Below are positions 43,329 to 64,000 of a stretch of 64,000 nt of DNA, in pieces; position 1 is the first letter of the stretch, and the number at the start of each line of letters is the position of its first letter. A program made the position numbers and the translations under genes. The notes below the pieces were generated by a model, which was not told the origin of the DNA, ran no database searches, and was given only the letters and a program-made list of their open reading frames with translations. The stretch is taken from NCBI RefSeq assembly GCF_001243045.1, contig NZ_LN849007.1:958989-1022988 (forward strand), given 5' to 3'. Origin of the DNA: Clostridium niameyense (GTDB lineage: Bacteria; Bacillota; Clostridia; Clostridiales; Clostridiaceae).

Positions 43329-43645
43329 GTATTTAGCAAATTTTATTTTAGATATAAGATATAGGTTTAAAAGATTATAATTGTTAATTTTATAAATATT
43401 TTAATAAAGACTTAGTTGGAAAAATATTTTATGTGGGGGAAAATACCATATTATCTGTAAGGCGTACAGAAGATATATATACAGAAACTTTAATAGTTTA
43501 TATTGAGCGTTTTTAGGTTTTTAATAAAATTGGGAAATTTACAGTGAAATCTTTGAAAATCAATAGATGCAGAGATATAATAAACTAAAAAAATGACTAG
43601 TTTACTTTGGTTGAACCTTAACATAAGATGTATTAAAATCTCTTT

Positions 43646-49479: not shown

Positions 49480-49518
49480 AATAAGAGCAGTGATAGACAA
49501 TCACTGCTCTTATTTATT
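49480..49518. terminator. Bidirectional terminator
   Basis: AAGAGCAGTGAT/ATCACTGCTCTT perfect 12-bp stem, 5-nt loop, with A- and T-rich flanks. Confidence 0.9.
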
Positions 49519-49652
49519 ATTAGGAATTTTCAATATGTATGAAAAAGAAGTTATATATAAAGGTATAGACAAAATTATATTTTATATACATAATAAGTAA
49601 ACTTTATATTTTAATAAAAAATTATAATTTCTAATAAAAAATAAAATAGCTA

Positions 49653-49683
49653 TTGACCCTCCTGTAAGAGGAGGGTTTAATAT
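49653..49683 (+). promoter_or_regulatory. MerR-type promoter/operator
   Basis: TTGACC (49653-49658) and TAATAT (49678-49683) are 19 bp apart, the overlong spacer typical of MerR-controlled promoters. The spacer region carries the perfect dyad ACCCTCC-N7-GGAGGGT (49656-49676). It drives the truncated MerR gene just downstream, consistent with autoregulation. Confidence 0.8.
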
Positions 49684-49723
49684 TAAATTGTAAAGAAAAT
49701 ATGGGCCCATAGGAGAGATTAAT

Positions 49724-49852
49724 ATGTTTAGAATAGGAGAATTCGCTAAGCTTAATAAAATATCTATAAAGACTTTAAGATATTATGATGAATTAAAGCT
49801 TTTGGTACCCATAAAAGTGGATACTAAGACAGAATCCAGATATGTCTATTGA
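49724..49852 (+). pseudogene. 5' end of a MerR-family regulator, interrupted by the prophage
   Basis: 42 codons: MFRIGEFAKLNKISIKTLRYYDELKLL... is the complete winged-helix start of a BltR/TipA-type MerR regulator. The frame stops at ESRYVY where family members continue with YRYYS and the coiled coil plus effector domain. AGGAGAG precedes the ATG. The prophage integrase begins 60 bp later, so the rest of the gene should lie at the other prophage end, beyond the window. Confidence 0.8.
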
Positions 49853-49881
49853 AATGTTTATATAAGTGGATTTAAGAAAAA

Positions 49882-49903
49882 TCGTCAAAAATTTCGTCAA
49901 AAA
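49882..49903. repeat. Direct repeat near attL, candidate integrase arm sites
   Basis: TCGTCAAAAA occurs at 49882-49891 and 49894-49903, 12 bp apart, between the MerR fragment and the 3' end of int. Confidence 0.5.
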
Positions 49904-49911
49904 AATATTTT

Positions 49912-50985
49912 TTAAAAAATATTTTCAATTATTTTTGTAGCTTTTTTCATCATGTCATCGGTAACATGGGAATAAATTCTCATGGTCATTTCCACAGTAT
50001 GACCTAATATCTTAGCTGCAGTTTTAAAATCTATTCCAGAACTAATCAATAAAGTAGCGTATGTGTGTCTTAACTCATGCATGGTTATTCCAGCAAGTTC
50101 CCTTAATTTAGGGTTTAAATATTTATCAATACTGGCGTGATTAAAAGGTGCAACCCTATTATTAATATCAATAGGGTTATTTTTCTTATAGTTTTTAAGT
50201 TCTTTTAATGTATTGGGAGATAAAGGAATTGTTCTATAAGAATTTTTTGATTTGAGTTTACCAAATCCGGATTTTTTATTTTTTAATACTTTCCATTGTT
50301 TATTTACACTTACGGTACTATTCTTTAAGTCTATATCATCCCAAGTAAGTCCTAATACCTCGCCTAATCTCATACCAGTATTAGCAGAAATAAAAGCAAC
50401 TATATAATATCTATTAGTTTTTAGTTTTTTTAATAATAGATCTAACTCTTTTTTAGTAAGCGCTTTTTTATTGCTATATTCCTTTTCTTTGGGAATTTTT
50501 ATATTCATAGTGGGTAATTCAGAAATTAAATTTAAATCATCTTTAACATAGATAAAAAACATATTCAATATTCCAACATACTTTTTTACTGTTGAGTATT
50601 TCAAATGCTCTTTTAACATTTTATCTACTATGCTTTGTATGTCATGTTTTTTGATTTTATTGATATTTTTATTATTTAAATCTTTGAATTTTGAAAAACA
50701 ATTCTTATAACCTTTAATGGTGTGATATTCTTTATAAAGAAAATTATGTTCTATATAAATAACTGATAATTCTTCAAAGGTTATATGATTAGTGGTATTT
50801 GAAGAATTATTATTTTTAATATTAGATTTTAATTCTTTTAACATTTTATCTATATACGGTTTACCTTCTTTTTGTGTTTTAAATCCTTGTTTGCTTTTCT
50901 GTTTCCACTTACCCAGGTTATCTTTATAACTTATTATAAACTGCCAGCCTTTATCTTTTTTTCTCCAAGTAATATTATACTCCAT
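49912..50985 (-). CDS. int: Phage tyrosine recombinase (integrase)
   Basis: 357 residues. An N-terminal arm-binding domain (ITWRKKDKGWQFIISYKDNLGKWKQ) precedes a SAM-like core-binding domain and the catalytic domain. Active-site residues: Arg in TGMRLGEVLGLTWDD, His-x-x-Arg in HELRHTYATLL, His in LGHTVEMTMRIYSHV and the Tyr in RIYSH. AAAGGGGTG favours the ATG at 50985 over the GTG at 50994. It lies beside the presumed att site and is transcribed away from the repressor genes. Confidence 0.93.
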   Translation of the reverse strand: MEYNITWRKKDKGWQFIISYKDNLGKWKQKSKQGFKTQKEGKPYIDKMLKELKSNIKNNNSSNTTNHITFEELSVIYIEHNFLYKEYHTIKGYKNCFSKFKDLNNKNINKIKKHDIQSIVDKMLKEHLKYSTVKKYVGILNMFFIYVKDDLNLISELPTMNIKIPKEKEYSNKKALTKKELDLLLKKLKTNRYYIVAFISANTGMRLGEVLGLTWDDIDLKNSTVSVNKQWKVLKNKKSGFGKLKSKNSYRTIPLSPNTLKELKNYKKNNPIDINNRVAPFNHASIDKYLNPKLRELAGITMHELRHTYATLLISSGIDFKTAAKILGHTVEMTMRIYSHVTDDMMKKATKIIENIF

Positions 50986-50994
50986 TAATTTCAC

Positions 50995-51312
50995 CCCTTT
51001 TTTATTTTATCTGTCACACTATTTGTCACACTTTTAAAATTAATAAATTCAGTTATATCAACGTTTTTAACGACTTTGTAAGAAATAAAACTGTGACATA
51101 TATAATATAAATTCTTTATTATATATATAAAAAGTTTATTTCATTTTATTTTTATATAAAAGAAAGTTAAAATCTCTGTCACTCTGTCACAGATGTAACT
51201 GTAAGTCAGATATATCAACGTGTATAAGGTGTGACAGATGATTTTTTTATCTGTCACACCTTGTCACAAAACAAGTTTAAAGTGTTGGTATAGCTAAACT
51301 TTCATTTGTCAC
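50995..51312. repeat. Cluster of TGTCAC/GTGACA repeats between immA and int
   Basis: TGTCAC or its complement begins at 51012, 51024, 51093 (GTGACA), 51177, 51185, 51231 (GTGACA), 51252, 51262 and 51307. Two are within a perfect 12-bp inverted repeat GGTGTGACAGAT (51228-51239) / ATCTGTCACACC (51249-51260). TATATCAACGT also repeats at 51054 and 51211. This is the upstream region of int, and likely binding sites for a phage regulator or accessory recombination protein. Confidence 0.75.
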
Positions 51313-51720
51313 AGTTTTAATATTATAATCTAATAAACCCTTTAGAATATAATTATCAATTGTAGATATATCAATACATAAATCTTTTTGGTTAAATAAT
51401 AAAGCAACTGCAAATAAATTAGCTTCATACTCGTAAATTCCATTATTAGTGTCATTAAATTCATTAATTAATTTATCACCATGTAGCAAAGCGTGACCTA
51501 ACTCATGAGCACATAATATCTTCTGTGATTTTGATGTAAGATAGTTGTTTAAATTAATAACGGGTGATTTACCTATTTTAATAGTATATGCTGGATAAAT
51601 ATTCGGTTTAAGATTAATATAATTAATTTGTATTCCTAGTTTATCACAAATTTTAATTGGATCCTTATCATATTTTTTCTTTAAATATTGTGCCAGATTT
51701 ATAATTTTATATATCCTCAT
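51277..51720 (-). CDS. ImmA/IrrE-family metallopeptidase
   Basis: 147-residue zinc peptidase with HELGHALLHG (about 75-84), the HExxH motif, plus the downstream YEYEANLFAVALL Glu/Asn region. In ICEBs1 and many phages, ImmA cleaves the partner repressor to trigger induction; the XRE repressor gene lies 28 nt upstream in the same operon. GGGGGT sets the ATG at 51720. The final codons overlap one TGTCAC repeat. Confidence 0.9.
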   Translation of the reverse strand: MRIYKIINLAQYLKKKYDKDPIKICDKLGIQINYINLKPNIYPAYTIKIGKSPVINLNNYLTSKSQKILCAHELGHALLHGDKLINEFNDTNNGIYEYEANLFAVALLFNQKDLCIDISTIDNYILKGLLDYNIKTVTNESLAIPTL

Positions 51721-51748
51721 GTGTACCCCCATTTAATCATATGTAAAA

Positions 51749-52189
51749 TTATTTATTGTATTTAGGTCCTAACATTTTTAATAAATTCAAAAGTTCATTT
51801 GCGAATGCGATTATATCCTCATCTGTCATTTTATTAGTATTAAAACCACCATACCCCATTACACTAGGTTGTTTTAATATAAATTGCATAGCTGATTCAG
51901 CAGTTTTAAATTCTCCAGTTTCATATAAAGAACATTCTTCTTTTACACAGTTATATTTATTATCATATTCTTTTAATTTATCCTCGCTTATTGGTTCAGA
52001 TTTCATTAATTCATCTACTGTAACCTCTAAAGTATCAGCTAATTTTTTAAGTGTATTAATAGTTGGATTTTCTTTTTCACCTCTTTCCATGGCACTTATA
52101 TAACTAGCATTTACTCCACTCATTCTACTCAATTCATTAACGCCTAATCCTTTTAATTCTCTAAGTCTTTTAATATTTTCACCAAACAT
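51749..52189 (-). CDS. XRE-family phage repressor
   Basis: 146 residues: an N-terminal helix-turn-helix (NIKRLRELKGLGVNELSRMSGVNASYISAMERGEK, then PTINTLKKLADTLEVTVDELM) and a helical C-terminal part for oligomerisation or ImmA recognition. GGAGATGATTAA precedes the ATG. It is divergent from the Cro-like gene, with repeated AGAACA half-sites between them. Probably the lysogeny master repressor. Confidence 0.9.
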   Translation of the reverse strand: MFGENIKRLRELKGLGVNELSRMSGVNASYISAMERGEKENPTINTLKKLADTLEVTVDELMKSEPISEDKLKEYDNKYNCVKEECSLYETGEFKTAESAMQFILKQPSVMGYGGFNTNKMTDEDIIAFANELLNLLKMLGPKYNK

Positions 52190-52284
52190 TTAATCATCTC
52201 CTTTCTAGTAGTATATCCTTATAGAATACATTATATACTACCAGTACACAAAGTCAATAGTAAATTAAAGATAAAAAGAGATAT

Positions 52285-52384
52285 ATTCTGATAGAACATG
52301 ATATTTTTCTCTAATTGTGTTCTGAGGGAACATCAGTGTTTGAAATGTGCTTACAGAACATGATATTATGTACTCACAGAACAC
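52285..52384. promoter_or_regulatory. Phage operator region between repressor and cro-like genes
   Basis: AGAACATGATATT is repeated exactly at 52293-52305 and 52355-52367. AGAACAC lies at 52378-52384 and its inverse GTGTTCT at 52317-52323, inside GTTCTGAGGGAAC (52319-52331). These repeated half-sites in the divergent control region are likely repressor/Cro operators. Confidence 0.7.
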
Positions 52385-52401
52385 GAGGAGGTGAATAAAA
52401 A

Positions 52402-52599
52402 TTGAATAAAATTAAATATTTTAGAAAAATAAAGGGGTTAAGTATATATGATTTATCTGATAAAACTAATTTGACTCCAAGTTATATTAATAATTTAGAA
52501 AATGGACATAAAAATAATCCAACTAAAGCAACTATGGAAAAAATATCAATTGCACTTGATCAAACTGTTTCTGAAATATTTTATCCTCTGGAGGTATAA
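52402..52599 (+). CDS. Cro-like XRE regulator
   Basis: 65-residue single-domain helix-turn-helix: IKYFRKIKGLSIYDLSDKTNLTPSYINNLENGHKNNPTKATM in outline. Small size and position, divergent from the repressor and first in the early operon, fit a Cro-type switch protein. The TTG start follows GAGGAGGTGA. The next gene begins 2 nt after its stop. Confidence 0.87.
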   Translation: MNKIKYFRKIKGLSIYDLSDKTNLTPSYINNLENGHKNNPTKATMEKISIALDQTVSEIFYPLEV

Positions 52600-52601
52600 A
52601 T

Positions 52602-52892
52602 ATGAGTGAATTATTAACTCAAAAAGATTTGGCACAACGTTGGAGAATGAGTGTTAAGTCTATAGAAGAATATCGTAAAGCTGGTATTATACCTATAGTT
52701 CAAGGTATACCAGCAATAAGATTTAATCTACAAACAATTATGGAGTTAGAGGGAACTAAGTTAGAAAGATTTAGTCCATTAGAACGTAAACGTATGGAAA
52801 GGGAATTAGAAGAATTAAAGCAAGAGAATGAACAAATTAAATCTATATTAAGTAAGGTATTAGGTGATTTAGCACCAGTAATTAATTTATAA
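52602..52892 (+). CDS. Phage helix-turn-helix protein with coiled-coil tail
   Basis: 96 residues. LTQKDLAQRWRMSVKSIEEYRKAGIIPI is a MerR/excisionase-like winged HTH, followed by a heptad-rich helix (ERFSPLERKRMERELEELKQENEQIKSIL). The layout fits early regulators or Xis-like factors. TGGAGGTATAAAT precedes the ATG. It ends 18 nt before the long inverted repeat. Confidence 0.7.
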   Translation: MSELLTQKDLAQRWRMSVKSIEEYRKAGIIPIVQGIPAIRFNLQTIMELEGTKLERFSPLERKRMERELEELKQENEQIKSILSKVLGDLAPVINL

Positions 52893-52910
52893 GTAAAGCA
52901 CTGTAATAAA

Positions 52911-53026
52911 CCTAATGTCAAGCTTAATGAGCTAATTTGAGCGGGAGTAGGCGAAGATAAGAGCCACACTAAAATAAAATGTATAGCCACCGCCAAGACA
53001 ATTAGTTGATTAAGCTTGACATGAGG
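52911..53026 (+). ncRNA. Candidate structured RNA with a long closing helix
   Basis: 52911-52937 pairs with 53000-53026 over 27 positions, with 24 Watson-Crick pairs, one G-U and two mismatches; the perfect core is ATGTCAAGCTTAAT/ATTAAGCTTGACAT. The 62-nt interior can form GCGG/CCGC (52941-52944 with 52990-52993) enclosing a GGC/GCC hairpin (52950-52965), stacking inside the long stem. No T run follows, so it is not a standard terminator. It lies between two early genes. RNA element or paired protein site are both possible. Confidence 0.65.
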
Positions 53027-53049
53027 GAAGTATTTAAGGAGGTGTGTAA

Positions 53050-53166
53050 TTGAACATTAAAATTTTACAAGCTTACATTAGAGAATGTAAGAAACTGCAT
53101 ATAAAACCAACATGGAAAGGCCTAAAGATAAATTCAAAGGTGGGTGGTGTCATATGTCACAAGTAA
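53050..53166 (+). CDS. Small phage protein, 38 residues
   Basis: A TTG start follows AAGGAGGTGTGTAA and the frame reads KILQAYIRECKKLHIKPT...SKVGGVICHK. It overlaps the start of the helicase gene by 13 nt. It is basic, with no known domain. The strong ribosome site is the main evidence. Confidence 0.55.
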   Translation: MNIKILQAYIRECKKLHIKPTWKGLKINSKVGGVICHK

Positions 53167-54437
53167 AACTCTATCCACACCAAGAGCAGGCGTTAAATCA
53201 AACTCAAGAGTTCAACAGAGTAGCTTACTATTTAGATATGGGATTAGGTAAGACATTTGTTGGTTCAGAGAAATTAAAAGGGCTCAATGCCAATACTAAC
53301 TTAGTTATCTGTCAAAAATCAAAGTTAGATGATTGGAAAGAGCACTTTAAAACATATTACCCAGAGTATAACACATTTATATACTCTAAAACAAGAGAAA
53401 TACCAAACAAGTCAGTTGTGATAATTAACTATGACTTAGTTTGGAGAAGACCAGAGTTAGCTGAGTTGGAAAATTTTACTTTAATGTTAGATGAAAGTTC
53501 AATGATTAAAAATTCTACAAGTAAGAGAACTAAATTTATTCTTAAATTAAATGCAAAGAACGTAGTACTTTTATCAGGTACTCCATGTGGAGGGCGATAT
53601 GAAGAACTTCATACTCAATGTAAGTTATTAGGTTGGAAAATAAGTAAAAAGCTTTATTGGAATCACTACGTAAAATTTATAAATATGGATGTTGGAGGTT
53701 TTAAAATCCCCAAGGTTACTGGATATAAGAATGTTGAAAGACTTAAGCAAAAGTTACATGAACATGGAAGTGTTTTTATGAAAACTGAGGAAGTATTTGA
53801 CCTTCCAGAGCAAGTAGAAATACCAGTTTTAATTGAGAACACTAAAGAGTATAAGAAGTTTAATAAAGATAGAGTTATAACAATAGGTAATACAGAGCTG
53901 GTAGGAGATACAAGCTTAACTAAAATGCTTTATTTAAGACAGTTAGCTTCACAATATAATCCTAATAAGTTAGCAGTACTTAAGGACTTACTAGAGAGTA
54001 CTAACGATAGAGTAATAATATTTTATAACTTTACAGAAGAAATGAAACAAATTAAAGATTATTTACTCAAAATTGAGAAACCAATAAGCATAGTTAACGG
54101 TGGCACTAAAGACTTGGAAAATTTTAAGTCTAAAGATAATAGCATAACGCTAGTTCAGTATCAAGCTGGAGCAATGGGATTAAACTTACAGTTAAGCAAT
54201 AAGATTATCTATTATAGTTTACCTCTTGCAAGCGAATTATTTGAACAAAGTAAAAAAAGAACACATAGGATAGGGCAAACAAGAACTTGTATGTATTGGT
54301 ATTTAATAACTAAGGGTTCTATAGAAGAACAGATATTTGAGGTTTTGAAGCAGAGAAAAGATTATACTGAAAAGCTATTTGAGAAAGATCAAAATGATTA
54401 TACAGATATTTACGAAAGGATGGAGAAACATGAATAA
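53154..54437 (+). CDS. SNF2-type DEAD/DEAH-like phage helicase
   Basis: 427-residue SF2 ATPase. Motifs: Q-like YPHQEQALNQ, Walker A DMGLGKTFVG (about 29), Walker B variant MLDESSMIKN (DESS in place of DEAH), motif III LSGTPCGG, motif V QYQAGAMGLNLQ and motif VI QSKKRTHRIGQTR. The last is typical of SNF2 translocases found in phage replication modules. GGTGG about 8-10 nt upstream favours the ATG at 53154. It overlaps the next gene by 8 nt. Confidence 0.9.
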   Translation: MSQVKLYPHQEQALNQTQEFNRVAYYLDMGLGKTFVGSEKLKGLNANTNLVICQKSKLDDWKEHFKTYYPEYNTFIYSKTREIPNKSVVIINYDLVWRRPELAELENFTLMLDESSMIKNSTSKRTKFILKLNAKNVVLLSGTPCGGRYEELHTQCKLLGWKISKKLYWNHYVKFINMDVGGFKIPKVTGYKNVERLKQKLHEHGSVFMKTEEVFDLPEQVEIPVLIENTKEYKKFNKDRVITIGNTELVGDTSLTKMLYLRQLASQYNPNKLAVLKDLLESTNDRVIIFYNFTEEMKQIKDYLLKIEKPISIVNGGTKDLENFKSKDNSITLVQYQAGAMGLNLQLSNKIIYYSLPLASELFEQSKKRTHRIGQTRTCMYWYLITKGSIEEQIFEVLKQRKDYTEKLFEKDQNDYTDIYERMEKHE

Positions 54438-55245
54438 ATTACAACTTAAAGTTTTAGAAAATAAACCAGCAGAAGTGAATTTCAACTATGAAGAAATATC
54501 TAATAATTTAGATATTGTTCTTAAAAAATATGAGGGGATAGTTGTTACAGAGGATACTGTAAAAGATGGAAAGAAAGTTATAGCGGATTTAAGAAAGGGT
54601 AAAAAGTCTTTAGATGAATTTAGAAAGAAAACTAAAAAAGAACTCACTGCTCCAGTGAAAGAGTTTGAAGATAAATGTAAAGAATTAAGTAAAAAGTTTG
54701 ATGAAGTTATAGATCCAATAGTAGAACAAGCTGAACAGTTTGAAGAAAAGAGAAAATTTGAAAAGAAAATTGAAGTTGAAAAAGTTATAGATGAAGTTTG
54801 TAAACTTAAAGGACTTGATGAATTACCGCTAGAGGATAGTTATTTGAATAAGTCAACCTCACTTAAGAGTATTAAAACAGAGTTGATTAAGGTTGCAGAT
54901 AACATCTTACTTCAACAAGCTACTTTTAAAGCGAATGCAGATTTAATTAAATCTAAAATTGAAGTTGTTAATACGAAACATGATATAAATTTAGCAGATA
55001 CACCATATGTAAGTATGTTGGAATATACAGATGTTCAAACTGTACTAGAACAAATAAAGAAAGATGTTGAAGAACTTAAAACAAAAATAGCTACTCCAGT
55101 AGTACAAGTACCTTCCAAAGATGAAGAAATATTTGTAGACACTTATGAGATAGAAGGAACCGAAGGTCAATTAAATGCTTTGGAAGATTTCCTAAATATT
55201 TATGATTATAAATGGAAGATTGTTTCGCTGGAACCGGAGGATTAA
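54430..55245 (+). CDS. DUF1351 phage protein
   Basis: 271 residues, mostly coiled coil: FNYEEISNNLDIVLKKYEGIVVTEDTVKDGKKVIADLRKGKKSL in outline, then LTAPVKEFEDKCKELSKKFDEVIDPI, the DUF1351 hallmark. Members sit in phage recombination modules near SNF2 helicases and RecT/nuclease genes and may organise single-strand annealing. The ATG overlaps the helicase stop region. Molecular role unknown. Confidence 0.82.
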   Translation: MNKLQLKVLENKPAEVNFNYEEISNNLDIVLKKYEGIVVTEDTVKDGKKVIADLRKGKKSLDEFRKKTKKELTAPVKEFEDKCKELSKKFDEVIDPIVEQAEQFEEKRKFEKKIEVEKVIDEVCKLKGLDELPLEDSYLNKSTSLKSIKTELIKVADNILLQQATFKANADLIKSKIEVVNTKHDINLADTPYVSMLEYTDVQTVLEQIKKDVEELKTKIATPVVQVPSKDEEIFVDTYEIEGTEGQLNALEDFLNIYDYKWKIVSLEPED

Positions 55246-55249
55246 TCAA

Positions 55250-55540
55250 ATGGCAGCAGAAAAGCAATTTGAAAATAAGATTAAAAAGTTTTTAGAAAGT
55301 TTACCCAATACTTGGTTCTTTAAATATTGGGCAGGACCTATGAGTAAAGCTGGTATCCCAGACATAATAGCATGTGTAAACGGTAGATTTGTTGGAATAG
55401 AAGTTAAAGCACCGAATGGTAACCCTAGTGAGTTACAGAAACGTAATATAAGGCTTATACAGGAGTGTGGAGGACTTGGATATATATTATATCCCCATCA
55501 GTTTGAAAGCTTTAAAAAAGAAATATTGGAGTTAACTTAA
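55250..55540 (+). CDS. VRR-NUC domain nuclease
   Basis: 96-residue PD-(D/E)XK-type nuclease. Catalytic pattern: GIPDIIACVNGRFVGIEVKAP (Asp, Glu-x-Lys, about 38-58) and LQKRNIRLIQECGG. Stand-alone VRR-NUC proteins in phages act on branched or flap DNA. CCGGAGGATTA fixes the ATG at 55250, downstream of a longer in-frame opening. Confidence 0.9.
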   Translation: MAAEKQFENKIKKFLESLPNTWFFKYWAGPMSKAGIPDIIACVNGRFVGIEVKAPNGNPSELQKRNIRLIQECGGLGYILYPHQFESFKKEILELT

Positions 55541-55643
55541 TTAGTATAACCAATAAATATAAAAACTATACGTGTTTTTATAAAAGGTGAATAGATTTTA
55601 TAAAAATCGTCAACAACTTTATAGTAGGGGGTGAAATTAGAAC

Positions 55644-57341
55644 GTGAGACAAAGTGCTATAACACAGTTTCAGAAATGTCCTTATAAATATAAATTGCAG
55701 TATGTAGATAACTTAAAAACTATACCATCTGATGATCCAGCTAATGCATTGGTAATTGGAACTGCAATACATTATGGAGCTGAAACAGAAAGTATAGAAA
55801 ATATGTTACAAAATTATTATCAAAACTTCAATATTTTAACTGATGCCCAAATAAACGAAGCTATTAAATTAGAATATTTATTGCCGCAAGTTTTAGATTT
55901 CATTAAGCAATTTGACACAGTTGAACATGAAGTACCATTTCAAGTTGGAAGTTTCCACGGAACGGCTGATTTACTGGCACATAATAAAGATGGAACCGTA
56001 GATTTATATGACTATAAATATAGTAATAATATAGATGATTATATGGAAGGTCCTCAATTACACATATATAAATACTTTTTAGAGTTATGTGGATATAAAG
56101 TAAATAAAATGGCATTTATCTTTATTCCAAAAACATTTATAAGACAGAAGAAAACCGAGGACTTATATCAGTTTAGGAAAAGATTACTTGAAACATTAAA
56201 AGACATGAAAATACAAATTAAGTATTTAGAATATGACCAAAGTAAGGTTACAAATTCTTTAATTACTGCGGTTGAAATGCTAGAAACTAAAGAATTTAAG
56301 AAAAATCCATCACGCTTATGTGATTGGTGTGAGTTTAAAAAATATTGTTTTGAAGGAGTAGATTATATGATATTACCTAAAAATGAAAGAAGAGATATTA
56401 AGAAAGCTAAAAAGAGAAAGATGTGGATATATGGTCCAGCATTTAGTGGAAAAACTACAATGTTAGATAGTGCCCCAAGTCCACTTAACCTAAATACAGA
56501 TGGAAACATAGAGTTTGTTACAATGCCTTACATTTCCATTAAAGACGAGGTAACGGTTAACGGAAGAATTACAAAAAGAAAATTTGCTTGGGAAGTTTTT
56601 AAAGATGCTATAGAAGAATTAGAGAAAAAACAAAATGATTTCCAAACTATTATAGTTGATTTACTAGAAGATACTAGAGAAATGTGTAGGGTTTATAAAT
56701 ATGATGAATTGGGAATACAACACGAATCAGATAGTGGATTTGGGAAAGGTTGGGACATTATAAAAACTGAATACTTAAGTACCATGAGAAGATTTTTTAA
56801 TCTAGATTATGGAAATTTAGTGGTGTTATCACAAGAAGATATATCCAAAGATATTACTAAGAAGAATGGTCAGAATGTGACCAGAATAGCACCTAATATT
56901 CAAGAAGCAATAGCTAATAAAATTGCTGGTATGGTGGACATAGTTGCCAGAGTAGTAGTCGATGGTGATGAAAGAACATTAAACTTTAAATCAGATGAAG
57001 TTATATTTGGTGGTGGCAGATTGAAAGGAATTACTAAAACAAGTATTCCGTTAAGTTGGGATGAGTTAATGAAAGTATATGATGAAGCTAATGCTGGCAA
57101 GAAAGATAATGTTCCAGTTGAAGAAAAACCAACTAGAAGAAGGAGTAAAAAAGAAGAAAGTAAAATTGAAGAAGATAAAGAACCAGAAACTACTCCTAAG
57201 GAAGAAGAAACACCTGCAGAGGAAACAATAGACGAGCTTAAGGAGGAAGCTAAAGATGAAATTAAAGAAGATAAACCAGTAGAAGAACCTAAGGAAGAAA
57301 AGCCAAGACGTAGAAGAAGAAAGAAGGCTGATGAAAAATAA
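55644..57341 (+). CDS. Fused Cas4-like PD-(D/E)XK nuclease and AAA_24 ATPase
   Basis: 565 residues. Part one (1-241) is a Cas4/RecB-like nuclease: QFQKCPYKYKLQYVD (first Fe-S Cys), FHGTADLLA and DLYDYKYSNN (Asp; Asp-x-Lys), with CDWCEFKKYC supplying the other cluster Cys. Part two (242-565) is a RecA-like AAA_24 ATPase with Walker A GPAFSGKTTM (about 261) and Walker B QTIIVDLLED, then an acidic/basic tail. In many phages these are two genes. Met242 has GAAGGAG eight bases upstream (56352-56358), so the ATPase may also be made alone. Confidence 0.85.
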   Translation: MRQSAITQFQKCPYKYKLQYVDNLKTIPSDDPANALVIGTAIHYGAETESIENMLQNYYQNFNILTDAQINEAIKLEYLLPQVLDFIKQFDTVEHEVPFQVGSFHGTADLLAHNKDGTVDLYDYKYSNNIDDYMEGPQLHIYKYFLELCGYKVNKMAFIFIPKTFIRQKKTEDLYQFRKRLLETLKDMKIQIKYLEYDQSKVTNSLITAVEMLETKEFKKNPSRLCDWCEFKKYCFEGVDYMILPKNERRDIKKAKKRKMWIYGPAFSGKTTMLDSAPSPLNLNTDGNIEFVTMPYISIKDEVTVNGRITKRKFAWEVFKDAIEELEKKQNDFQTIIVDLLEDTREMCRVYKYDELGIQHESDSGFGKGWDIIKTEYLSTMRRFFNLDYGNLVVLSQEDISKDITKKNGQNVTRIAPNIQEAIANKIAGMVDIVARVVVDGDERTLNFKSDEVIFGGGRLKGITKTSIPLSWDELMKVYDEANAGKKDNVPVEEKPTRRRSKKEESKIEEDKEPETTPKEEETPAEETIDELKEEAKDEIKEDKPVEEPKEEKPRRRRRKKADEK

Positions 57342-57475
57342 TTAGGGGGGTCTCTATGTCAAGTAAATATGTAATACAAACGTTGAAATTGCAATAAAGA
57401 AGCCTTAAAAACTTTGTATAAATAAGAGATCAAAATATATAATTATAAAAAAAAGAAACGGAAAGGAAGATAATT
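57342..57475. other. 134-bp gap with a 13-codon frame
   Basis: After TTAGGGGGG a 13-codon frame (MSSKYVIQTLKLQ, 57356-57397) occurs; it may be a leader peptide or relic. Nothing else is seen. Confidence 0.3.
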
Positions 57476-57934
57476 ATGACTAACATATGGGAAAAATTTG
57501 ATAAAAACATTGATGTGGAAGGTTTAAAGAAAGATGTAGAGGAAGCAGCTAATAACAACAATGACTTTAAGGAAGTACCACATGGAGAATATGAGGTTGA
57601 GGTAAATAAACTAGAGTTAAGAGAAAGTAAAAAAGGAGATCCAATGTTAAGTATTTGGTTTAAGATTTTAACAGGAGAATATAAAGGTAGCTTAATATTC
57701 TACAACCAAGTTCTAAGCAATGGATTTGGATTACACAAGGCAAATGAAATGTTAAGAAGTCTAGATAGTGGAATAGATGTAGAGTTTGAAAGCTTTAGTC
57801 AATACAACAATATGCTTATGGACATAGCTGAAGCAGTGGACGGTAATTTAGAATTTGCATTAAGCTACACAGCTAATAAAAAGAATCCTAAATTTAGCGA
57901 GTACGAGATAAAAGACGTATTTGAAGTAGAGTAA
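57476..57934 (+). CDS. DUF669 phage protein
   Basis: 152 residues: VPHGEYEVEVNKLELRESKKGDPMLSIWFKIL and YKGSLIFYNQVLSNGFGLHKANEML fit DUF669, a family next to AAA_24 ATPases and polymerases in phage genomes. The beta-rich body suggests an OB-fold single-strand-binding role, an inference. AAAGGAAGATAATT precedes the ATG. Confidence 0.82.
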   Translation: MTNIWEKFDKNIDVEGLKKDVEEAANNNNDFKEVPHGEYEVEVNKLELRESKKGDPMLSIWFKILTGEYKGSLIFYNQVLSNGFGLHKANEMLRSLDSGIDVEFESFSQYNNMLMDIAEAVDGNLEFALSYTANKKNPKFSEYEIKDVFEVE

Positions 57935-57986
57935 GGGTGATGGGGAGTGTGAAAGCTCCCCTTTAAAATAAAGTGAGGTGTAAAAA

Positions 57987-58178
57987 ATAAAAGAATATGC
58001 ACTTTACAAGGGAGAGGAAATATTAGCTATAGGAACAGTAAAGGGGATAGCTGAGAAGTTAAATATTTTACCCCAAACGGTTGTGTATTATTGCATAGAT
58101 GCATATAAAAGAAAGTTGGCTAAAAGAAAAAATACTAAAAATGCAAGAATTTTAGTTGATTTAGATTATGAAGAATAA
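57987..58178 (+). CDS. Small phage protein with apparent ATA start
   Basis: 63-residue frame KEYALYKGEEILAIGTVKGIAEKLNILPQTVVYY...RILVDLDYEE, a pattern seen in a common phage family with a small HTH-like fold. GAGGTG (57975-57980) lies six bases before ATA at 57987; a TAA is only two codons further up. No ATG, GTG or TTG is available at the N terminus. Either ATA is used or the start was lost. Confidence 0.55.
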   Translation: MKEYALYKGEEILAIGTVKGIAEKLNILPQTVVYYCIDAYKRKLAKRKNTKNARILVDLDYEE

Positions 58179-58191
58179 AGGTGATATAGAA

Positions 58192-59889
58192 ATGCTTTTT
58201 TATGACTTTGAAGTATTTAAATATGACTGGCTAGTAGTTATTAAAGATACTGATAGTAAAACCACACATACAATAGTTAACGATAGAGATAAGTTAAATA
58301 ATTTCTATGAAGCTAACAAAGAAAATATATGGTTTGGTTATAATAGTAGGTCCTATGATCAATGGATTTTGAAAGCTATAATAGCTGGATTTAATCCTAA
58401 AGAATTAAATGATTGGATTATAGTAGAACATAAACCAGCATGGAAATTTAGCAGCATACTTTGGAAAATTCAACTTTATAACTATGATGTTATGACAAGT
58501 TTTCATGGACTTAAACAATTGGAAGGATTTATGGGAAATGACATAAGAGAAACAACAGTTAATTTTAATATAGATAGGAAACTTACGGAGGAAGAACTCC
58601 AGGAAGTTATATTCTATTGTAATCATGACGTAGAACAAACAATGGAAGTATTTATAAATAGAATTGAAGAGTTTGAAGCACATATGGGATTAATTAAAAG
58701 TTTCAAATTACCACTTAAATATATAAGTAAGACCAAGGCTCAATTAAGTGCAATAATCTTAGGATCAGATAAACGTGAGCGTAATGACGAGTTTGAAATT
58801 ACTATAGTACCAACTATAAAGATTAATAAATATAAAGAGATTTTAAATTGGTATAAGAACCCACTCAATAAAGATTATGATAAAAAACTAGAATATGAAG
58901 TTGCTGGAGTACTTCATATATTCGGTTGGGGTGGACTTCACGGAGCTAGACCTAATTATATGAGTGAAGGAGTATTTATAAATTCAGACGTAGGAAGTTT
59001 TTATCCAAGTTTAATGATACAGTATGATTTTTTAAGTAGAAACGTAAGGGACAAGAGTAAATATAAAGAGATTTATGATTATAGAATGACACTTAAAAAA
59101 GCTGGTAAAAAGAAAGAACAACAACCTTACAAAATTGTACTTAATTCAACTTATGGAGCTAGTAAAGATAAATATAATAATCTACATGATCCATTACAAG
59201 CTAATAATGTGTGTATTAATGGTCAACTCATGTTACTTGACCTTATAGAAAAAGTAATTGAAGGAGTTCCGGGAGTTAAATTAATTCAATCAAATACAGA
59301 TGGTGTTATGTGGAAGTTACCGAGTGATAAATATATAGAAACTTATAAATTAATATGTGAAGAATGGTGTAATAGAACACGAATGACATTGGACCATGAC
59401 CATATTAAAAAAGTGGTTCAGAAAGATGTAAATAATTATTTGATAGTTATGGAAAATGGAAAAGTAAAGTCAAAAGGTGCTTATGTTAAATCCTTAAATA
59501 AGTTGGATTATGACCTTCCTATTATAAATAATGCTTTAATGAATTACTTTATTAAAGGAATAATACCTGAAGAAACAATTAATAATTGTAACCAACTTAA
59601 AGAATTTCAAAAAGTTTGTAAAGTATCATCTAAATATTTATACGCTTACCATGGAAATAAAAAACTAGATGAAAAGGTTTTGAGAGTATTTGCTAGTAGG
59701 AGCAGACATGATGCTGGAGTATTCAAACAAAAAACAGAAGGTGGAACATTAGAAAAAATAGCAAGTACACCAATAAGGTGTTTTATTGATAATTCAGACA
59801 TTGAAGGTAAAACAGTACCGAGAAAACTAGACAAGCAATGGTATATAGATATGGCTTGGAAAAGAATAAAAGATTTTATAGGAGAGTGA
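58192..59889 (+). CDS. Family B DNA polymerase
   Basis: 565 residues. The 3'-5' exonuclease domain starts FYDFEVFKYDW (ExoI-like D-x-E), with GYNSRSYDQ (ExoII) and YCNHDVEQT (ExoIII). The polymerase has motif A DVGSFYPSLM (about 271), motif B KIVLNSTYGASKD and motif C SNTDGV in place of DTDS. The first Asp of motif C is Asn, but the metal-binding second Asp is kept. AAAGGTGAT favours the ATG at 58192 over the ATG at 58168. Likely the phage replicative polymerase. Confidence 0.88.
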   Translation: MLFYDFEVFKYDWLVVIKDTDSKTTHTIVNDRDKLNNFYEANKENIWFGYNSRSYDQWILKAIIAGFNPKELNDWIIVEHKPAWKFSSILWKIQLYNYDVMTSFHGLKQLEGFMGNDIRETTVNFNIDRKLTEEELQEVIFYCNHDVEQTMEVFINRIEEFEAHMGLIKSFKLPLKYISKTKAQLSAIILGSDKRERNDEFEITIVPTIKINKYKEILNWYKNPLNKDYDKKLEYEVAGVLHIFGWGGLHGARPNYMSEGVFINSDVGSFYPSLMIQYDFLSRNVRDKSKYKEIYDYRMTLKKAGKKKEQQPYKIVLNSTYGASKDKYNNLHDPLQANNVCINGQLMLLDLIEKVIEGVPGVKLIQSNTDGVMWKLPSDKYIETYKLICEEWCNRTRMTLDHDHIKKVVQKDVNNYLIVMENGKVKSKGAYVKSLNKLDYDLPIINNALMNYFIKGIIPEETINNCNQLKEFQKVCKVSSKYLYAYHGNKKLDEKVLRVFASRSRHDAGVFKQKTEGGTLEKIASTPIRCFIDNSDIEGKTVPRKLDKQWYIDMAWKRIKDFIGE

Positions 59890-60059
59890 TAAAAATAATA
59901 GGATGTAATCAATACAATAAAAATTGTTACGATTGTATCTATTTTAATACAGATAGGAGATCAAAGAATGGCGGTTGTATATTAGGAAAATGTAAACCAA
60001 ATTGTAAAGAGAAGGTGGTTAAAAATGGGAACTCTAAAAGTATTAGTAATACCATGTAA
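59886..60059 (+). CDS. Small Cys-rich phage protein
   Basis: 57 residues with seven Cys, including GCNQYNKNCYDCIYF and GGCILGKCKPNC, which suggests a zinc-ribbon-like metal site. The GTG at 59886 overlaps the polymerase stop; the GGAG is very close (about 2 nt), so coupling rather than independent initiation is likely. Function unknown. Confidence 0.6.
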   Translation: MIKIIGCNQYNKNCYDCIYFNTDRRSKNGGCILGKCKPNCKEKVVKNGNSKSISNTM

Positions 60060-60153
60060 GACTTTTAGGGAACGTATGAGACTTACTAAACAGTATATAG
60101 ACAAGTACTTTATAGAAAATATGGGAAGTTACTTGTATTTAGTTAGGAGGTAA
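60025..60153 (+). CDS. Small phage protein, 42 residues
   Basis: GAAGGTGG lies 6-7 nt before the ATG; the product MGTLKVLVIPCKTFRERMRLTKQYIDKYF... is basic and helical. It overlaps the Cys-rich gene and ends inside the ribosome site of the next gene (AGGAGGTAA). No family recognised. Confidence 0.5.
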   Translation: MGTLKVLVIPCKTFRERMRLTKQYIDKYFIENMGSYLYLVRR

Positions 60154-60162
60154 TATGATTGA

Positions 60163-60444
60163 ATGGATAAAATACATGAACACTATAAAATGTGTAAAAA
60201 TCTAAATGATTTATACAAAAGTAAAAACCATGATTATGGTGACAGTTTTGGAGAAACTTTTAAAAAATTAGGAGTTATAAGTGCGGTAACTAGAATTACA
60301 GATAAAGTTAATAGATTACAAAGCTTAGCAACTAAAGAACAGTTAGTAAATGATGAAAGTATAAAAGATACTTTAATGGACTTAGCAAATTATTCAATAA
60401 TGACGCTTATAGAATTAGAAGGAGAAAAGGAACATGAGGATTAA
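60163..60444 (+). CDS. DUF1599/Nmad1-like protein
   Basis: 93 residues: CKNLNDLYKSKNHDYGDSFGETFKKLG and ITDKVNRLQSL, then DTLMDLANYSIMTLIELE. This matches DUF1599 (nucleotide modification associated domain 1), an all-helical MazG-like fold proposed to act on modified nucleotides. GGAGG lies 12 nt upstream of the ATG, a long spacing. It overlaps the MazG-like gene by 11 nt. Confidence 0.78.
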   Translation: MDKIHEHYKMCKNLNDLYKSKNHDYGDSFGETFKKLGVISAVTRITDKVNRLQSLATKEQLVNDESIKDTLMDLANYSIMTLIELEGEKEHED

Positions 60445-60772
60445 AGAGTTAGTTAAAAAATCACATGAAAATGCAGTTGACAAAGGATTTTGGGATAATT
60501 GGGTTTGGATAAAAAGAGATAGACTACAAGGTCATACTGAACATTATTACAATGCTATAAATACTAATTTACTTGAAATAGTGAGAGAAGTAACTGAAGC
60601 TATGGAAGGTTTAAGACGTGGGGATATGGACAACTTTAAAGAAGAATTAGCAGATACAGTTATTTGGATTGCGGATTTATGTGGTGGATTGGAAATAGAT
60701 TTAGAGGAAGAGATAAGAAAAAAGATGAGGATTAATAAAGAAAGGGCATATAAACATGGGAAAATGTTTTGA
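60434..60772 (+). CDS. MazG-like nucleotide pyrophosphohydrolase
   Basis: 112 residues with the metal-binding E-x-x-E...E-x-x-D pattern: LLEIVREVTEAMEGLRRGDMDNFKEELADTVIWIADLCG in outline (about 46-84). Such enzymes hydrolyse dNTPs or (p)ppGpp. Pairing with the DUF1599 gene suggests nucleotide-pool control during phage replication. The ATG overlaps the upstream stop. Confidence 0.8.
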   Translation: MRIKELVKKSHENAVDKGFWDNWVWIKRDRLQGHTEHYYNAINTNLLEIVREVTEAMEGLRRGDMDNFKEELADTVIWIADLCGGLEIDLEEEIRKKMRINKERAYKHGKMF

Positions 60773-60914
60773 AAATTGGTTGAATAAACAAGCACCAATT
60801 TTAGCACCTACAGTGGCAATTTGTATTTTGAAAAATAGATTTGGTGTAAACAATGCTGAAAAAATTTATAGAGCTTGGAGAAAAGAATACATGAAAGTAG
60901 ATACACAAAGATAG
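60756..60914 (+). CDS. Small phage protein, 52 residues
   Basis: ATG at 60756 inside the end of the MazG-like gene, after AAAGAAAGGG. Product: CFENWLNKQAPILAPTVAICILKNRFGVNNAEKIYRAWRKEY in outline, basic and helical with paired Trp residues. The second half, NAEKIYRAWRK, resembles a short DNA-binding helix. No firm family. Confidence 0.6.
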   Translation: MGKCFENWLNKQAPILAPTVAICILKNRFGVNNAEKIYRAWRKEYMKVDTQR

Positions 60915-60979
60915 TAGATTATGAATCAATAATGTTTTGGATAAAAGTAAAAAGAGACCTATCTTTTGATAAGTCTCAT

Positions 60980-61051
60980 ATATGGTGGTGGGAGTCGAAC
61001 CCACAGTACTCCCTTAGCAGGGGAGCGTTCTGTCCATTGAACTACACCACC
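60980..61051 (-). tRNA. tRNA with GCU anticodon (Ser codons AGC/AGU) but short variable arm
   Basis: Reading the minus strand from 61051: D stem GTTC/GAAC with GG in an 8-nt loop, anticodon stem CTCCC/GGGAG with loop CTGCTAA (anticodon GCT), 4-nt variable region TACT, T arm GTGGG-TTCGACT-CCCAC. The acceptor GGTGGTG/CACCATA has five good pairs, one G-U and a G-A mismatch at 1:72. CCA is not encoded. Serine tRNAs normally have a long variable arm, so this is a class I body with a serine-type anticodon. A promoter directly upstream supports expression. Confidence 0.75.
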
Positions 61052-61062
61052 GCACTTTTAAC

Positions 61063-61091
61063 ATTTTAACATTATAGTAATTAAGTGTCAA
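61063..61091 (-). promoter_or_regulatory. Sigma-A promoter of the phage tRNA
   Basis: On the minus strand: TTGACA (61086-61091), 17-bp spacer, TAAAAT (61063-61068). The start would fall a few bases before the tRNA 5' end. Confidence 0.75.
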
Positions 61092-61099
61092 GAAATAAA

Positions 61100-61114
61100 T
61101 TCGCAAAAATAAAG
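61100..61114. repeat. 15-bp direct repeat, left copy
   Basis: TTCGCAAAAATAAAG just before the methyltransferase ribosome site; identical copy at 61583. Confidence 0.75.
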
Positions 61115-61124
61115 GGGTGAGAGT

Positions 61125-61595
61125 TTGGAAAAGCCTATATTGGATGTATGTTGTGGAAGCAGAATGTTTTGGTTTGATAAAGAAAATAAAGATGTAATTT
61201 TTATGGATAATAGAGAATTGGAAGATACACTATGTGACGGAAGAAAATTAATAATTAAACCAGATGTGTTAGGAGATTTTAGACATATTCCATATAAAGA
61301 TAATACTTTCAAGCTAGTAGTTTTTGATCCACCACATTTAATTAAAGTTGGAGAAAATTCTTGGTTGGCCAAGAAATATGGAAAGTTAAATAATGATTGG
61401 CCAATAGATATTAAAAAAGGGTTTGAAGAATGCATGAGAGTTTTAGACAACTATGGAGTATTAATTTTTAAGTGGAATGAGGAACAAATAAAGCTAAAAG
61501 AAATTTTAAAGGTTATAGATTATAAACCTTTATTGGGAAATAAAAGAGCAAAAACACATTGGCTAGTTTTCATGAAATTTAGTTCGCAAAAATAA
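61125..61595 (+). CDS. SAM-dependent methyltransferase
   Basis: 156 residues. The SAM loop is KPILDVCCGSRMFWFD (about 3-18), followed by VIFMDNRE (acidic end of strand 2) and DPPH (about 67-70), the catalytic motif IV of N6-adenine/N4-cytosine DNA methyltransferase-type enzymes. No target-recognition domain is evident, as in other small phage members. The TTG start follows AAAGGGGTGAG. The gene is bracketed by exact 15-bp direct repeats. Confidence 0.82.
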   Translation: MEKPILDVCCGSRMFWFDKENKDVIFMDNRELEDTLCDGRKLIIKPDVLGDFRHIPYKDNTFKLVVFDPPHLIKVGENSWLAKKYGKLNNDWPIDIKKGFEECMRVLDNYGVLIFKWNEEQIKLKEILKVIDYKPLLGNKRAKTHWLVFMKFSSQK

Positions 61596-61597
61596 AG
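61583..61597. repeat. 15-bp direct repeat, right copy
   Basis: TTCGCAAAAATAAAG encoding the last codons of the methyltransferase; identical to 61100-61114. Confidence 0.75.
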
Positions 61598-61612
61598 TTA
61601 TATGAAGTAATT

Positions 61613-61646
61613 CTAGTACACTATTAATTTACTTATAGTGTACTAG
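61613..61646 (+). promoter_or_regulatory. Perfect 12-bp inverted repeat upstream of the clamp gene
   Basis: CTAGTACACTAT and ATAGTGTACTAG flank a 10-nt loop. No U tract follows. It may be an operator or an mRNA hairpin between the methyltransferase and clamp genes. Confidence 0.6.
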
Positions 61647-61681
61647 AGTATTAAAACAGTATTACAATAGGGGGGAATAAT

Positions 61682-62671
61682 ATGAAAGTACATTTAAGTT
61701 GTATACAAGACATTTTAAAACTAACAAAAGCAAGTAATATAAGCATCATGCTTAAAGACAAAATTTATGTAGTAGCAAATGAAATAAAAGACAATGAATT
61801 TAAAGGACAAATTGTTATAAGTTCAGATGCTGCTTCTTATGAAGATGAAGGACAAACATTAATTAATAGAGATGTTTTAAAACTTGTTCCCAAAGGCACT
61901 TTAGTAACTGTAAAAGAAGATGTGATAGTTGCTGGAAATAGAAAGATTAAATATCCTAAAAATGATATTATACATGAACCTATTAAGGTGGAGAATTATT
62001 TAACCACTATACCAGCTGGAGAATTAAAACATCTATTGAGTGGGTATTATGCTATGTCAACCACTTTAGCTAGACCAATATTATGTGGTATGTGTATTAA
62101 TGGTAGTGATTTTATAGCATTAGATGGTTATAGATTGGAAGTTAGAAAGGGTAATTTTGAAGTTAAAGAGCAAGTAGTAATGGACTTAAGTATGGTTAAT
62201 ACATTGAAAAAAATTAAATATGATAAAGATGTTGAAGTTTATTACAACTATAAATATGTAAAATTCAAGTTTGGAGATTTAGAAGTCATAGGGAATAGAC
62301 TTGAAGGGAATTACATTAAATATAATCAAATAATTCCGGAGAATTGCAGCACATCAGTAGAAATAGAAACTAAACCTATAGTTGATATATTAAAGGATTA
62401 CAAAAAGAATAAATTCGAGTTAGTTAAATTGAATTTTGAAACTAATAAATTAATAATTAGTGCAAGTAATGAAATTGCAAGTATTGAAGATAAGGTATGC
62501 ATAAAATTGCAAGGTGAACCTTTAAAAATTGCATTTAACGTAAATTATTTAATAGATGCTTTAAAAGACTATAAAGTTGCAACTTTAGAACTTACAGCTA
62601 GAGTTAATCCAATGCTAATTAAAGCTGATAATAAATTAGATTTAGTATTACCAGTGAGAATTAGAGATTAA
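61682..62671 (+). CDS. Sliding clamp (DNA polymerase III beta subunit) homologue
   Basis: 329 residues in three clamp-like repeats. The middle domain has YYAMSTTLARPILCGMCING and FIALDGYRLEVRKG, and the C terminus LDLVLPVRIRD, equivalent to the YxxMPxR end of DnaN. It is shorter than chromosomal DnaN (about 365). It presumably tethers the phage family B polymerase or other phage enzymes. AGGGGGGAATAAT precedes the ATG. Confidence 0.85.
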   Translation: MKVHLSCIQDILKLTKASNISIMLKDKIYVVANEIKDNEFKGQIVISSDAASYEDEGQTLINRDVLKLVPKGTLVTVKEDVIVAGNRKIKYPKNDIIHEPIKVENYLTTIPAGELKHLLSGYYAMSTTLARPILCGMCINGSDFIALDGYRLEVRKGNFEVKEQVVMDLSMVNTLKKIKYDKDVEVYYNYKYVKFKFGDLEVIGNRLEGNYIKYNQIIPENCSTSVEIETKPIVDILKDYKKNKFELVKLNFETNKLIISASNEIASIEDKVCIKLQGEPLKIAFNVNYLIDALKDYKVATLELTARVNPMLIKADNKLDLVLPVRIRD

Positions 62672-62696
62672 GATTTAAAAGGTAGGGTGAACTGAA

Positions 62697-64000
62697 ATGT
62701 GGAAAGGATATATACCAACTGGCGGTAGGGATGGAAAACACCCTACCGAAGAATATAAAGATAGAACAGAGTTTTATAAACTCGAAGAAGTTGAAAGTTT
62801 AAAATCTTATGGGGGCGTACTTAAAAGTAATTTAATACAAATAGATATTGATAATTTAGATGAAGCTAAAATACTTCTGTCAATTGTTAAAAGCTTAAAT
62901 ATACATACCACCGTGTTAAAAACTACAAGGGGAATGCACTTTTATTTTAAGAACGTTGGTATAGAACGTAGAAAGCAAGGTTATTATACTGCACTAGGAA
63001 TAAAAATAGATGTTGGTCTTGGAATACAAAATGCAGTAGTACCATTAAAAATTAAAGGTAAATTAAGAGAGTTTATACAAGTAGCGGAAGAATTAGACGA
63101 GTTGCCAGCGTGGTTAGAGCCACTTAAAAAAGCAAAAATTGATTTTACCAACATGGGTGAGGGTGATGGTAGGAATAGTGGTCTGTTCGGTTATATATTA
63201 ACGTTGCAACAAAAGGGATTTAGTGTTGAGGAAGTAAGGGAAACAATAAGACTTATAAACACTTATGTAATAGCTGAGCCGTTAGATAAAACAGAGATTG
63301 AAACTATTTTAAGAGATGAAGCTTTTATGAAAGAAACATTTTATATTAAAAGTAAGTTACAGTATGAAAAACTAGCAATTTACTTAAGAGATAATGAAAA
63401 AGTTATAAAAATAAATGATGAACTACACATATATAAAGACAATTATTACTGCTCAGATACTAAAGAAATTGAAAAGAATATGTTGAAATATATAAAAAAT
63501 AGTACAAATGCAAATAGAACAGAAGTATTAAGATATTTAGATTTATTATGTCAAAACAATAAATTAGCCAATCCAAAATATATTACTGTAGCCAATGGTA
63601 TTTATGATTTAGAATCTAAAAAGTTACTGGAGTTTAATAGCAGCTACATTATAAAAAATAAAATTCCTTGGAGCTATAATCCAGATGCTAAGTCAAAAGT
63701 GATGGACAAGACTTTAAATAAAATATGTTGTAAGGATAAGCAATTAAGATTATTAATAGAGGAAATGATTGGTTACTGTTTATTCAGAAGAAATGAGATA
63801 GGAAAAGCTTTTATACTTACTGGACAAGGTGCTAATGGTAAGAGTACGCTCTTGGAAGTATTAAACGAATTATTAGGTGAAGAAAATATATCTAGTGTTA
63901 GTTTAGAAGAATTAAACCATAGATTTAAGACATTCCAACTAGAAGGTAAGTTAGCTAACATAGGTGATGATATTTCTAATAAGTATGTTGAAGATAATTC
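62697..64000 (+). CDS. PrimPol/D5-type primase-helicase (partial)
   Basis: Open to the window edge: 434 complete codons plus 2 nt. The N terminus is a bifunctional primase-polymerase-like domain (LIQIDIDNLDEA with the catalytic Asp-x-Asp; TTRGMHFYF). A linker with D5_N-like sequence follows, then the SF3 helicase begins with Walker A GQGANGKSTLLE (about 379-390) and LANIGDDIS (Walker B-like). It starts phage DNA replication by priming and unwinding. The ATG follows AAGGTAGGGTGAACTGAA. The C-terminal helicase part lies outside. Confidence 0.88.
   Translation, partial: MWKGYIPTGGRDGKHPTEEYKDRTEFYKLEEVESLKSYGGVLKSNLIQIDIDNLDEAKILLSIVKSLNIHTTVLKTTRGMHFYFKNVGIERRKQGYYTALGIKIDVGLGIQNAVVPLKIKGKLREFIQVAEELDELPAWLEPLKKAKIDFTNMGEGDGRNSGLFGYILTLQQKGFSVEEVRETIRLINTYVIAEPLDKTEIETILRDEAFMKETFYIKSKLQYEKLAIYLRDNEKVIKINDELHIYKDNYYCSDTKEIEKNMLKYIKNSTNANRTEVLRYLDLLCQNNKLANPKYITVANGIYDLESKKLLEFNSSYIIKNKIPWSYNPDAKSKVMDKTLNKICCKDKQLRLLIEEMIGYCLFRRNEIGKAFILTGQGANGKSTLLEVLNELLGEENISSVSLEELNHRFKTFQLEGKLANIGDDISNKYVEDN

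Follow-up and report, generated by a model that had tools for sequence, protein, structure and literature searches.

Gene order and fold at the prophage locus

The interval studied here (52911-53026) sits within a prophage in the window, that is, in the whole stretch of 64,000 nucleotides of Clostridium niameyense DNA that was analysed. The gene order starts with an integrase gene (49912-50994; phrog_1, E 1.2e-72), a metalloprotease-like gene and a CI-like repressor gene, all three on the − strand, and continues on the + strand with a Cro-like gene, an excisionase-like gene, the RNA, a small ORF, an SNF2-type helicase gene and replication genes. The divergent CI-like repressor (51749-52189) and the Cro-like HTH gene (52402-52599), which is the first listed + strand gene past it, were assigned by profile matches. 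The excisionase-like gene (52602-52892; phrog_7735, E 2.6e-30) has its stop codon 18 nt 5′ of the RNA. The first ORF past the RNA has 38 codons and a TTG start (53050-53163, or 53050-53166 with the stop codon, + strand); it runs into the beginning of the listed helicase ORF (53112-54437, + strand), and the true helicase start may lie slightly downstream of 53112. An earlier note, made from the letters of the DNA, had placed the RNA between an HTH gene and a helicase gene. The helicase is indeed downstream, but the upstream neighbour is excisionase-like and the small ORF intervenes.

Folded as RNA on the + strand, the 116-nt interval has a minimum free energy of −41.5 kcal/mol (z −7.5), compared with a mean of −19.0 kcal/mol (sd 3.0) for shuffled controls of 116 nt, none of which was as good (0/200). 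The − strand is weaker, at −37.9 kcal/mol (z −6.3). Among the inverted repeats listed for window positions 49500-64000 the element ranks first, the only longer entry being I2, an overlapping palindrome of 32 nt with 72% complementarity. GC content is 0.33 in each arm and 0.47 in the core, with 0.24 and 0.30 in the 100-nt flanks. The features described in the earlier note, namely two 27-nt arms with two mismatches and one G-U, pairing far beyond chance, a GC-richer core with inner pairing and the absence of a U tract, all held on re-count and folding. As to the last, no terminator-like site was found in 52150-53200, so the element is not an intrinsic terminator of the GC stem plus U tract type. 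Promoter-like sites in the window were not above chance (5 against 6.2 expected).

The closing helix, P1, is formed on the + strand by the 5′ arm (52911-52937) and the 3′ arm (53000-53026), as given by the fold, the arm count and the covariation of homologous columns; its sequence is variable and it contains a conserved G.G mismatch (52929 with 53008 in homologous alignment columns). It stops about 11 nt before the ribosome-binding site of the next ORF, leaving that site uncovered. Inside it, P2 pairs GCGG (52941-52944) with CCGC (52990-52993) around P3, in which GUAGGC (52947-52952) pairs with GCCAC (52963-52967); the 3′ strands of both come from alignment and RNAalifold. The P3 loop, GAAGAUAAGA (52953-52962; family form GANGAUANGA), has G.A and A.G end positions that are invariant in all 59 aligned members. 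The P4 hairpin (52968-52987) brings together 52968-52970 and 52985-52987; in the window its first pair is an unpaired A.C, and its loop imperfectly resembles the common family motif AAUACAU. The 3′ junction CAAGAC (52994-52999), placed by alignment, leads into the 3′ arm, all of these parts being on the + strand.

Two other features were seen in the window. A long variable arm is usual in tRNA-Ser. The tRNA-Ser(gct)-like gene found here is only 72 nt long (60980-61051), too short for such an arm, and lies antisense to the phage operon (− strand, window 60954-61091) with its own promoter-like site (61091-61063, 11/12) and terminator-like site (60977-60954). One match to the CRISPR-DR3 family, 30 nt at 43610-43639 (45.4 bits), lies beyond the integrase end of the prophage, and a search of the window with a related repeat, allowing up to 3 mismatches, gave no further copy.

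A family of structured RNAs

Comparison of the element DNA with 50,697 phage and 72,556 plasmid records gave short chance matches only, and an identical copy was present in IMG/VR contig 2775507061_000001. A covariance model built from the window element alone (R1) found one relative, L120, among 206 Clostridiaceae genomes (E 1.5e-6); R1 also matches the opposite strand of the window. A 15-base core pattern applied to AT-rich viral contigs gave 55 stretches, including the known copy and seven more members (L127, L129, L130, L134, L144, L153 and L156) whose arms differ yet still pair; the remaining stretches look like chance and are mostly GC-rich. Wider core patterns gave 17 and 119 stretches, with 80 of the 119 among the matches listed, and two of these matches (L211 and L233) were dropped by eye as false before counting. 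Core-pattern and covariance searches together yielded at least 75 distinct members including the window, nearly all from IMG/VR viral contigs. Twelve of the 75, a GC-richer group, carry an extra insert in the P4 loop; these and four near-duplicates (L156, L248, L282 and L299) were left out of the alignment, which has 59 rows and underlies model R2. The window scores 113.1 bits against R2 (E 9.3e-25) and has its core motifs and 34-pair structure, but is itself one of its 59 rows, so that independent support comes from R1 finding L120.

Other searches were less productive. A pattern for the arms in viral contigs gave, beyond the known copy, only L032 and L033, which are identical at that site; the site is coding in L032. 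A pattern search of the genomes with up to 3 mismatches gave hits in 10 of 206, of which G178 alone is a member by model and the rest were judged from their sequences to be chance. A link to the replication module was discarded, since R1 and R2 match the window only among 100 sources, comprising the window and its relatives by helicase, xis, exonuclease or polymerase.

In agreement with the suggestion that this is an undescribed structured phage RNA, no gathering-level match in Rfam 15 was obtained for the nine members tested (window, L180, L120, L127, L153, L177, L181, L197 and L198). The window element reached no family even at E values up to 10, and the L180 element gave just sub-threshold snoRNA noise.

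The family extends to staphylococcal phages, which makes the clostridial scope of the earlier note too narrow. Blast from L180 led to Staphylococcus phages StB12 (two records) and IME1364_02, and blast from IME1364_02 led to 17 staphylococcal records including phages phi 11, 77 and 42E; the named hosts are S. aureus (phi11) and S. hominis (StB12). In phi11 (AF424781), R2 matches 4328-4448 with 119 bits, and nothing else exceeds 16 bits. The deposited start of the phi11 anti-repressor (4427) falls inside the 3′ arm of the RNA (L318:4427-4460), while a start at 4460, behind GGAGG, is the counterpart of the one annotated in IME1364_02. Judging from the sequence, the ATG behind GGAGG is the likelier start. 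Within Clostridiaceae, R2 found 2 of 206 genomes, one of them core-only. A phylum-wide model search with strict filters, on a set that held no known positive, gave 0 of 398, and no member was found in Caldibacillus phage CBP1, where the best score was 15.4 bits.

Pairing is strongly preserved across the alignment. Standard pairs occupy 97.3% of 2006 cells in the 59 members compared with 74.3% after shuffling, and when the partners are slid by 1-3 columns only 27-44% of cells pair. The compensatory changes in diverged arms that the earlier note had proposed looking for were found, with both sides changing in 28 of 34 pairs, including all 23 pairs of P1; double-change cells number 414 against 104 in shuffled data, but since related sequences are not independent these covariation counts are higher than the true number of events. 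The same relatedness is present in the slid controls, and they fall far short of 97.3%. The innermost P2 pair, for instance, is A-U in 49 and G-C in 10 of the 59 members, and the second pair of P3 is U-A in 45, C-G in 6, U-G in 5 and G-C in 2. RNAalifold, run unguided on the 59 rows, returned the same 34 pairs as the structure drawn by inspection. Mismatches are kept as well: the G.G of P1 in 54 of 59 members and G36.A83 in all 59.

The wobble pairs bear on the choice between RNA and paired DNA sites. There are 223 G-U cells and 24 A-C cells, a ratio favoured in P2-P4 by a column choice that allowed G-U and less so in P1, where the arms set the register and the counts are 130 and 14. Since a G-U on one strand is an A-C on the other, the asymmetry indicates selection on RNA of the element's strand and counts against the alternative of DNA sites raised beforehand.

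The arms and the core have diverged to different degrees. When the window is compared with L144, both partners differ in 8 of the 23 P1 pairs, 7 of which are paired in each of the two sequences, no pair differs on a single side, and 60 of 61 core positions are identical. L144 and L001 are two viral contigs of one IMG genome (2775507061) with near-identical cores and partly different arms, a pattern that suggests core exchange or strong selection on the core. The interval thus belongs, with near certainty, to a conserved structured RNA family of Bacillota phages and prophages, whose architecture is a long closing helix P1, free in sequence and kept in pairing, around a conserved core of P2, P3 and P4.

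Position of the members in phage genomes

The members recur at a similar site. In 64 of 75 loci a same-strand ORF ends shortly upstream of the RNA, and in 72 there is another, with a ribosome-binding-site-like motif, that starts shortly past it, typically with its start codon about 20 nt beyond the 3′ arm; the neighbouring ORFs were picked automatically by loose rules, and some picks look spurious. Among the upstream proteins (60 of 64 scanned), 24 match phrog_3, a transcriptional repressor family, and fewer match excisionase or antirepressor families. The downstream proteins (69 of 72 scanned) fall into many unrelated families, the commonest being antirepressor (17/69), and this lack of a single downstream family makes one gene-specific target unlikely. 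An opposite-strand ORF of at least 95 aa lies within 2.5 kb upstream in 57 of 75 loci, at 152-1697 nt, and 47 of these 57 nearest ORFs match phrog_8, a transcriptional regulator family; among the 18 loci where it is missing, 11 hold less than 1 kb of upstream sequence. The usual site is on the sense strand shortly past a divergent repressor and a presumed early lytic promoter. Among 43 records searched over their full length, a single copy is the rule (42 records), and one record has two.

The second copy in that record (L304:2153-2304) is on the late side. Upstream of it are a sigma-factor gene (phrog_1190, E 2.5e-53) and another ORF; downstream come an unknown ORF and then the genes of the small and large terminase subunits. 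Its P3 loop has 33 nt where the model has 5, and the otherwise conserved loop is interrupted. The core-only match in a Clostridiaceae genome (E 8.4e-7) is preceded by a transcriptional-activator gene (phrog_248, E 8.4e-13); next to it downstream come a 59-codon ORF and an integrase gene instead of terminase. These two are the only late-side copies, and both are diverged.

Phages with a related xis or helicase have a different non-coding stretch in the corresponding interval, without one strong hairpin (L002:3300-3420, L009:2790-2920, L012:640-760 and L013:2280-2400). Motifs recur there, TTAGTGCCGCAA in L002 and L009, and CACTTCTTAAAA in L002, L012 and L013. In relatives by DNA polymerase, short tandem motifs (e.g., GTTACTGAT and TGGAATAGATG) occur as inverted pairs spanning 109-145 bp, at L071:15669, L091:8175, L093:9356, L099:13949, L100:14659 and L112:17213, which we take to resemble the iteron-type origins of SaPI-like elements.

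Proposed function and alternatives

Of the functions guessed beforehand, a predicted put-like antitermination activity agrees best with the recurrent position. A cis-acting antitermination or anti-pausing role is favoured because of the placement past a divergent repressor, the unrelated downstream genes, the single copy in 42 of 43 records and the two late-type copies. We tentatively give a protein-free element of this kind, comparable to put, EAR and canT, a little under an even chance. The RNA would be transcribed from the early promoter, fold, and act in cis as part of the nascent transcript. Its conserved core would bind the RNA polymerase of the host during elongation (or else a conserved elongation factor of the host), making that polymerase resist pausing and termination along the long operon. 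A phage protein would be dispensable, as for HK022 put RNA, Bacillus EAR and Tn916 canT, and the rare late-side copies may act likewise on the late side. Presence in both staphylococcal phages and Clostridiaceae points to a conserved host partner.

The put RNA suppresses pausing and termination through the β′ zinc-binding domain. Like putL and putR of HK022, the element is a structured RNA, predicted to lie in the nascent early transcript past a presumed early lytic promoter and to act without a dedicated protein; it is on the sense strand past the divergent repressor. Compared by fold and not by sequence, the put RNA of about 70 nt and two stem-loops (PMC9378689) differs from the element of about 116 nt with its closing helix and branched core; in the same paper, the distance from the PR start downstream to putR is given as about 270 nt. 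EAR, too, is a structured RNA within a long Gram-positive operon; it presumably has an Rfam model, whereas the window element reaches no Rfam family. EAR provides RNA-based antitermination in exopolysaccharide operons of Bacillales. The case of canT in Tn916 (PMC11658703, which also cites EAR) shows that a cis-acting RNA can bring about antitermination in a mobile element of Gram-positive bacteria. According to that paper, canT is processive, orientation-specific and most likely an RNA, needs no other genes of the element, and was studied mainly as a 452-nt fragment, with some shorter ones active (PMC11658703). It is set apart from the element indirectly, by genome occurrence and not by sequence: a Tn916-type Xis was found in 30 of 200 Clostridiaceae genomes, and these include neither of the 2 of 206 that match R2. 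The bipartite conAn system of pLS20, also a long-operon antitermination system of a Gram-positive conjugative element (PMC11658703), uses the protein ConAn1 with its RNA, unlike the protein-free action proposed here. In bases 1-45000 of the 65774 of pLS20, R2 found no family match, the best score being 16.6 bits for an arm-only inverted repeat. The element is therefore treated as a family of its own that may work like put, EAR and canT, and not as a member of any of them.

The main result against an antitermination role is that downstream terminators are about as rare as in shuffled sequence. Intrinsic-terminator-like sites on the operon strand are not enriched in the 8 kb downstream (20 against 17.7 expected; 54 loci, 371 kb), a stricter scan gave 1 site in 33 loci, and downstream in the window two scans found none, with one weak site (59767-59781) in a looser scan. 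The targets could be terminators farther away, pausing or Rho, or the role could be another one. Also against it, the family is not universal, as the match to the window only among the 100 sources indicates, the fold is unlike the two stem-loops of put, and the late-side copies are few and diverged. On the strand opposite the operon, the 8 kb downstream in the same 54 loci hold 2.5 times as many terminator-like sites as shuffles (140 vs 55).

Other functions were weighed on the same evidence. In lambda, the sib site cut by RNase III is a long hairpin near int/xis genes in the early transcript and acts in retroregulation. By analogy, RNase III could cut the P1 duplex, so that the message of the first lytic genes (cro and xis) would be separated from what follows and the 5′ end of the latter would be protected. 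In favour of this, the long P1 duplex lies shortly past the stop codon of the first genes and shortly before the next start, and in the window it comes after xis. This processing or stability role is nevertheless unlikely, as a cutting site needs no core far more conserved than its duplex, with invariant G.A and A.G, and the upstream genes vary. The closeness of the RNA end to the next start, together with conserved loops that could be protein-binding motifs, would also suit binding by a regulatory protein of the phage or the host in leader-type control of translation of the next gene or of lytic timing. The many unrelated families of next genes reveal no shared partner, and P1 in the window leaves the ribosome-binding site free, so we hold this to be improbable to a similar degree.

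A small RNA cut from the early transcript and acting in trans, on host or phage genes or against host defence, would be consistent with the compact, highly conserved form and the single copy in 42 of 43 records. The window shows no excess of promoter-like sites and no terminator after the element, and the placement inside operons plus two copies in one phage suggest a role in cis, which leaves it a rather doubtful option. Finally, one of 206 genomes holds a CRISPR-like repeat that the 3′ arm and the adjoining flank match (E 4.2e-4 per genome), which brought up mimicry of type I-B CRISPR repeats as an RNA anti-CRISPR. With two of the three repeats tried, 3-9 of 852 window stretches score as high as the element, and with the window's own repeat-like copy 65-76 do; the likeness, only moderately above background, is confined to the arm, the most variable part between members. 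Mimicry was rejected as highly improbable.

Returning to antitermination, the wider proposal is that these RNAs form an unrecorded class of protein-free processive antitermination RNA in temperate phages of staphylococci, clostridia and probably other Bacillota, phi11 included, that would modify the RNA polymerase of the host where the early operon begins and, for some of these phages, on the late side too. We regard it as plausible, though less likely than not. No description of the RNA was recognised in the open-access papers searched.

Accounts of early gene control in temperate phages of Gram-positive bacteria, including phi11, usually centre on repressor and Cro. A conserved RNA at the early-control site of many of these phages adds a layer beyond these two. 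It also provides a clean new RNA family for annotation, as illustrated by the phi11 anti-repressor start inside the 3′ arm. If it is an antiterminator, put, EAR and canT would be joined by another architecture, one found in a phage well suited to genetic work in the laboratory, and RNA polymerase modification in Bacillota phages would become directly testable.
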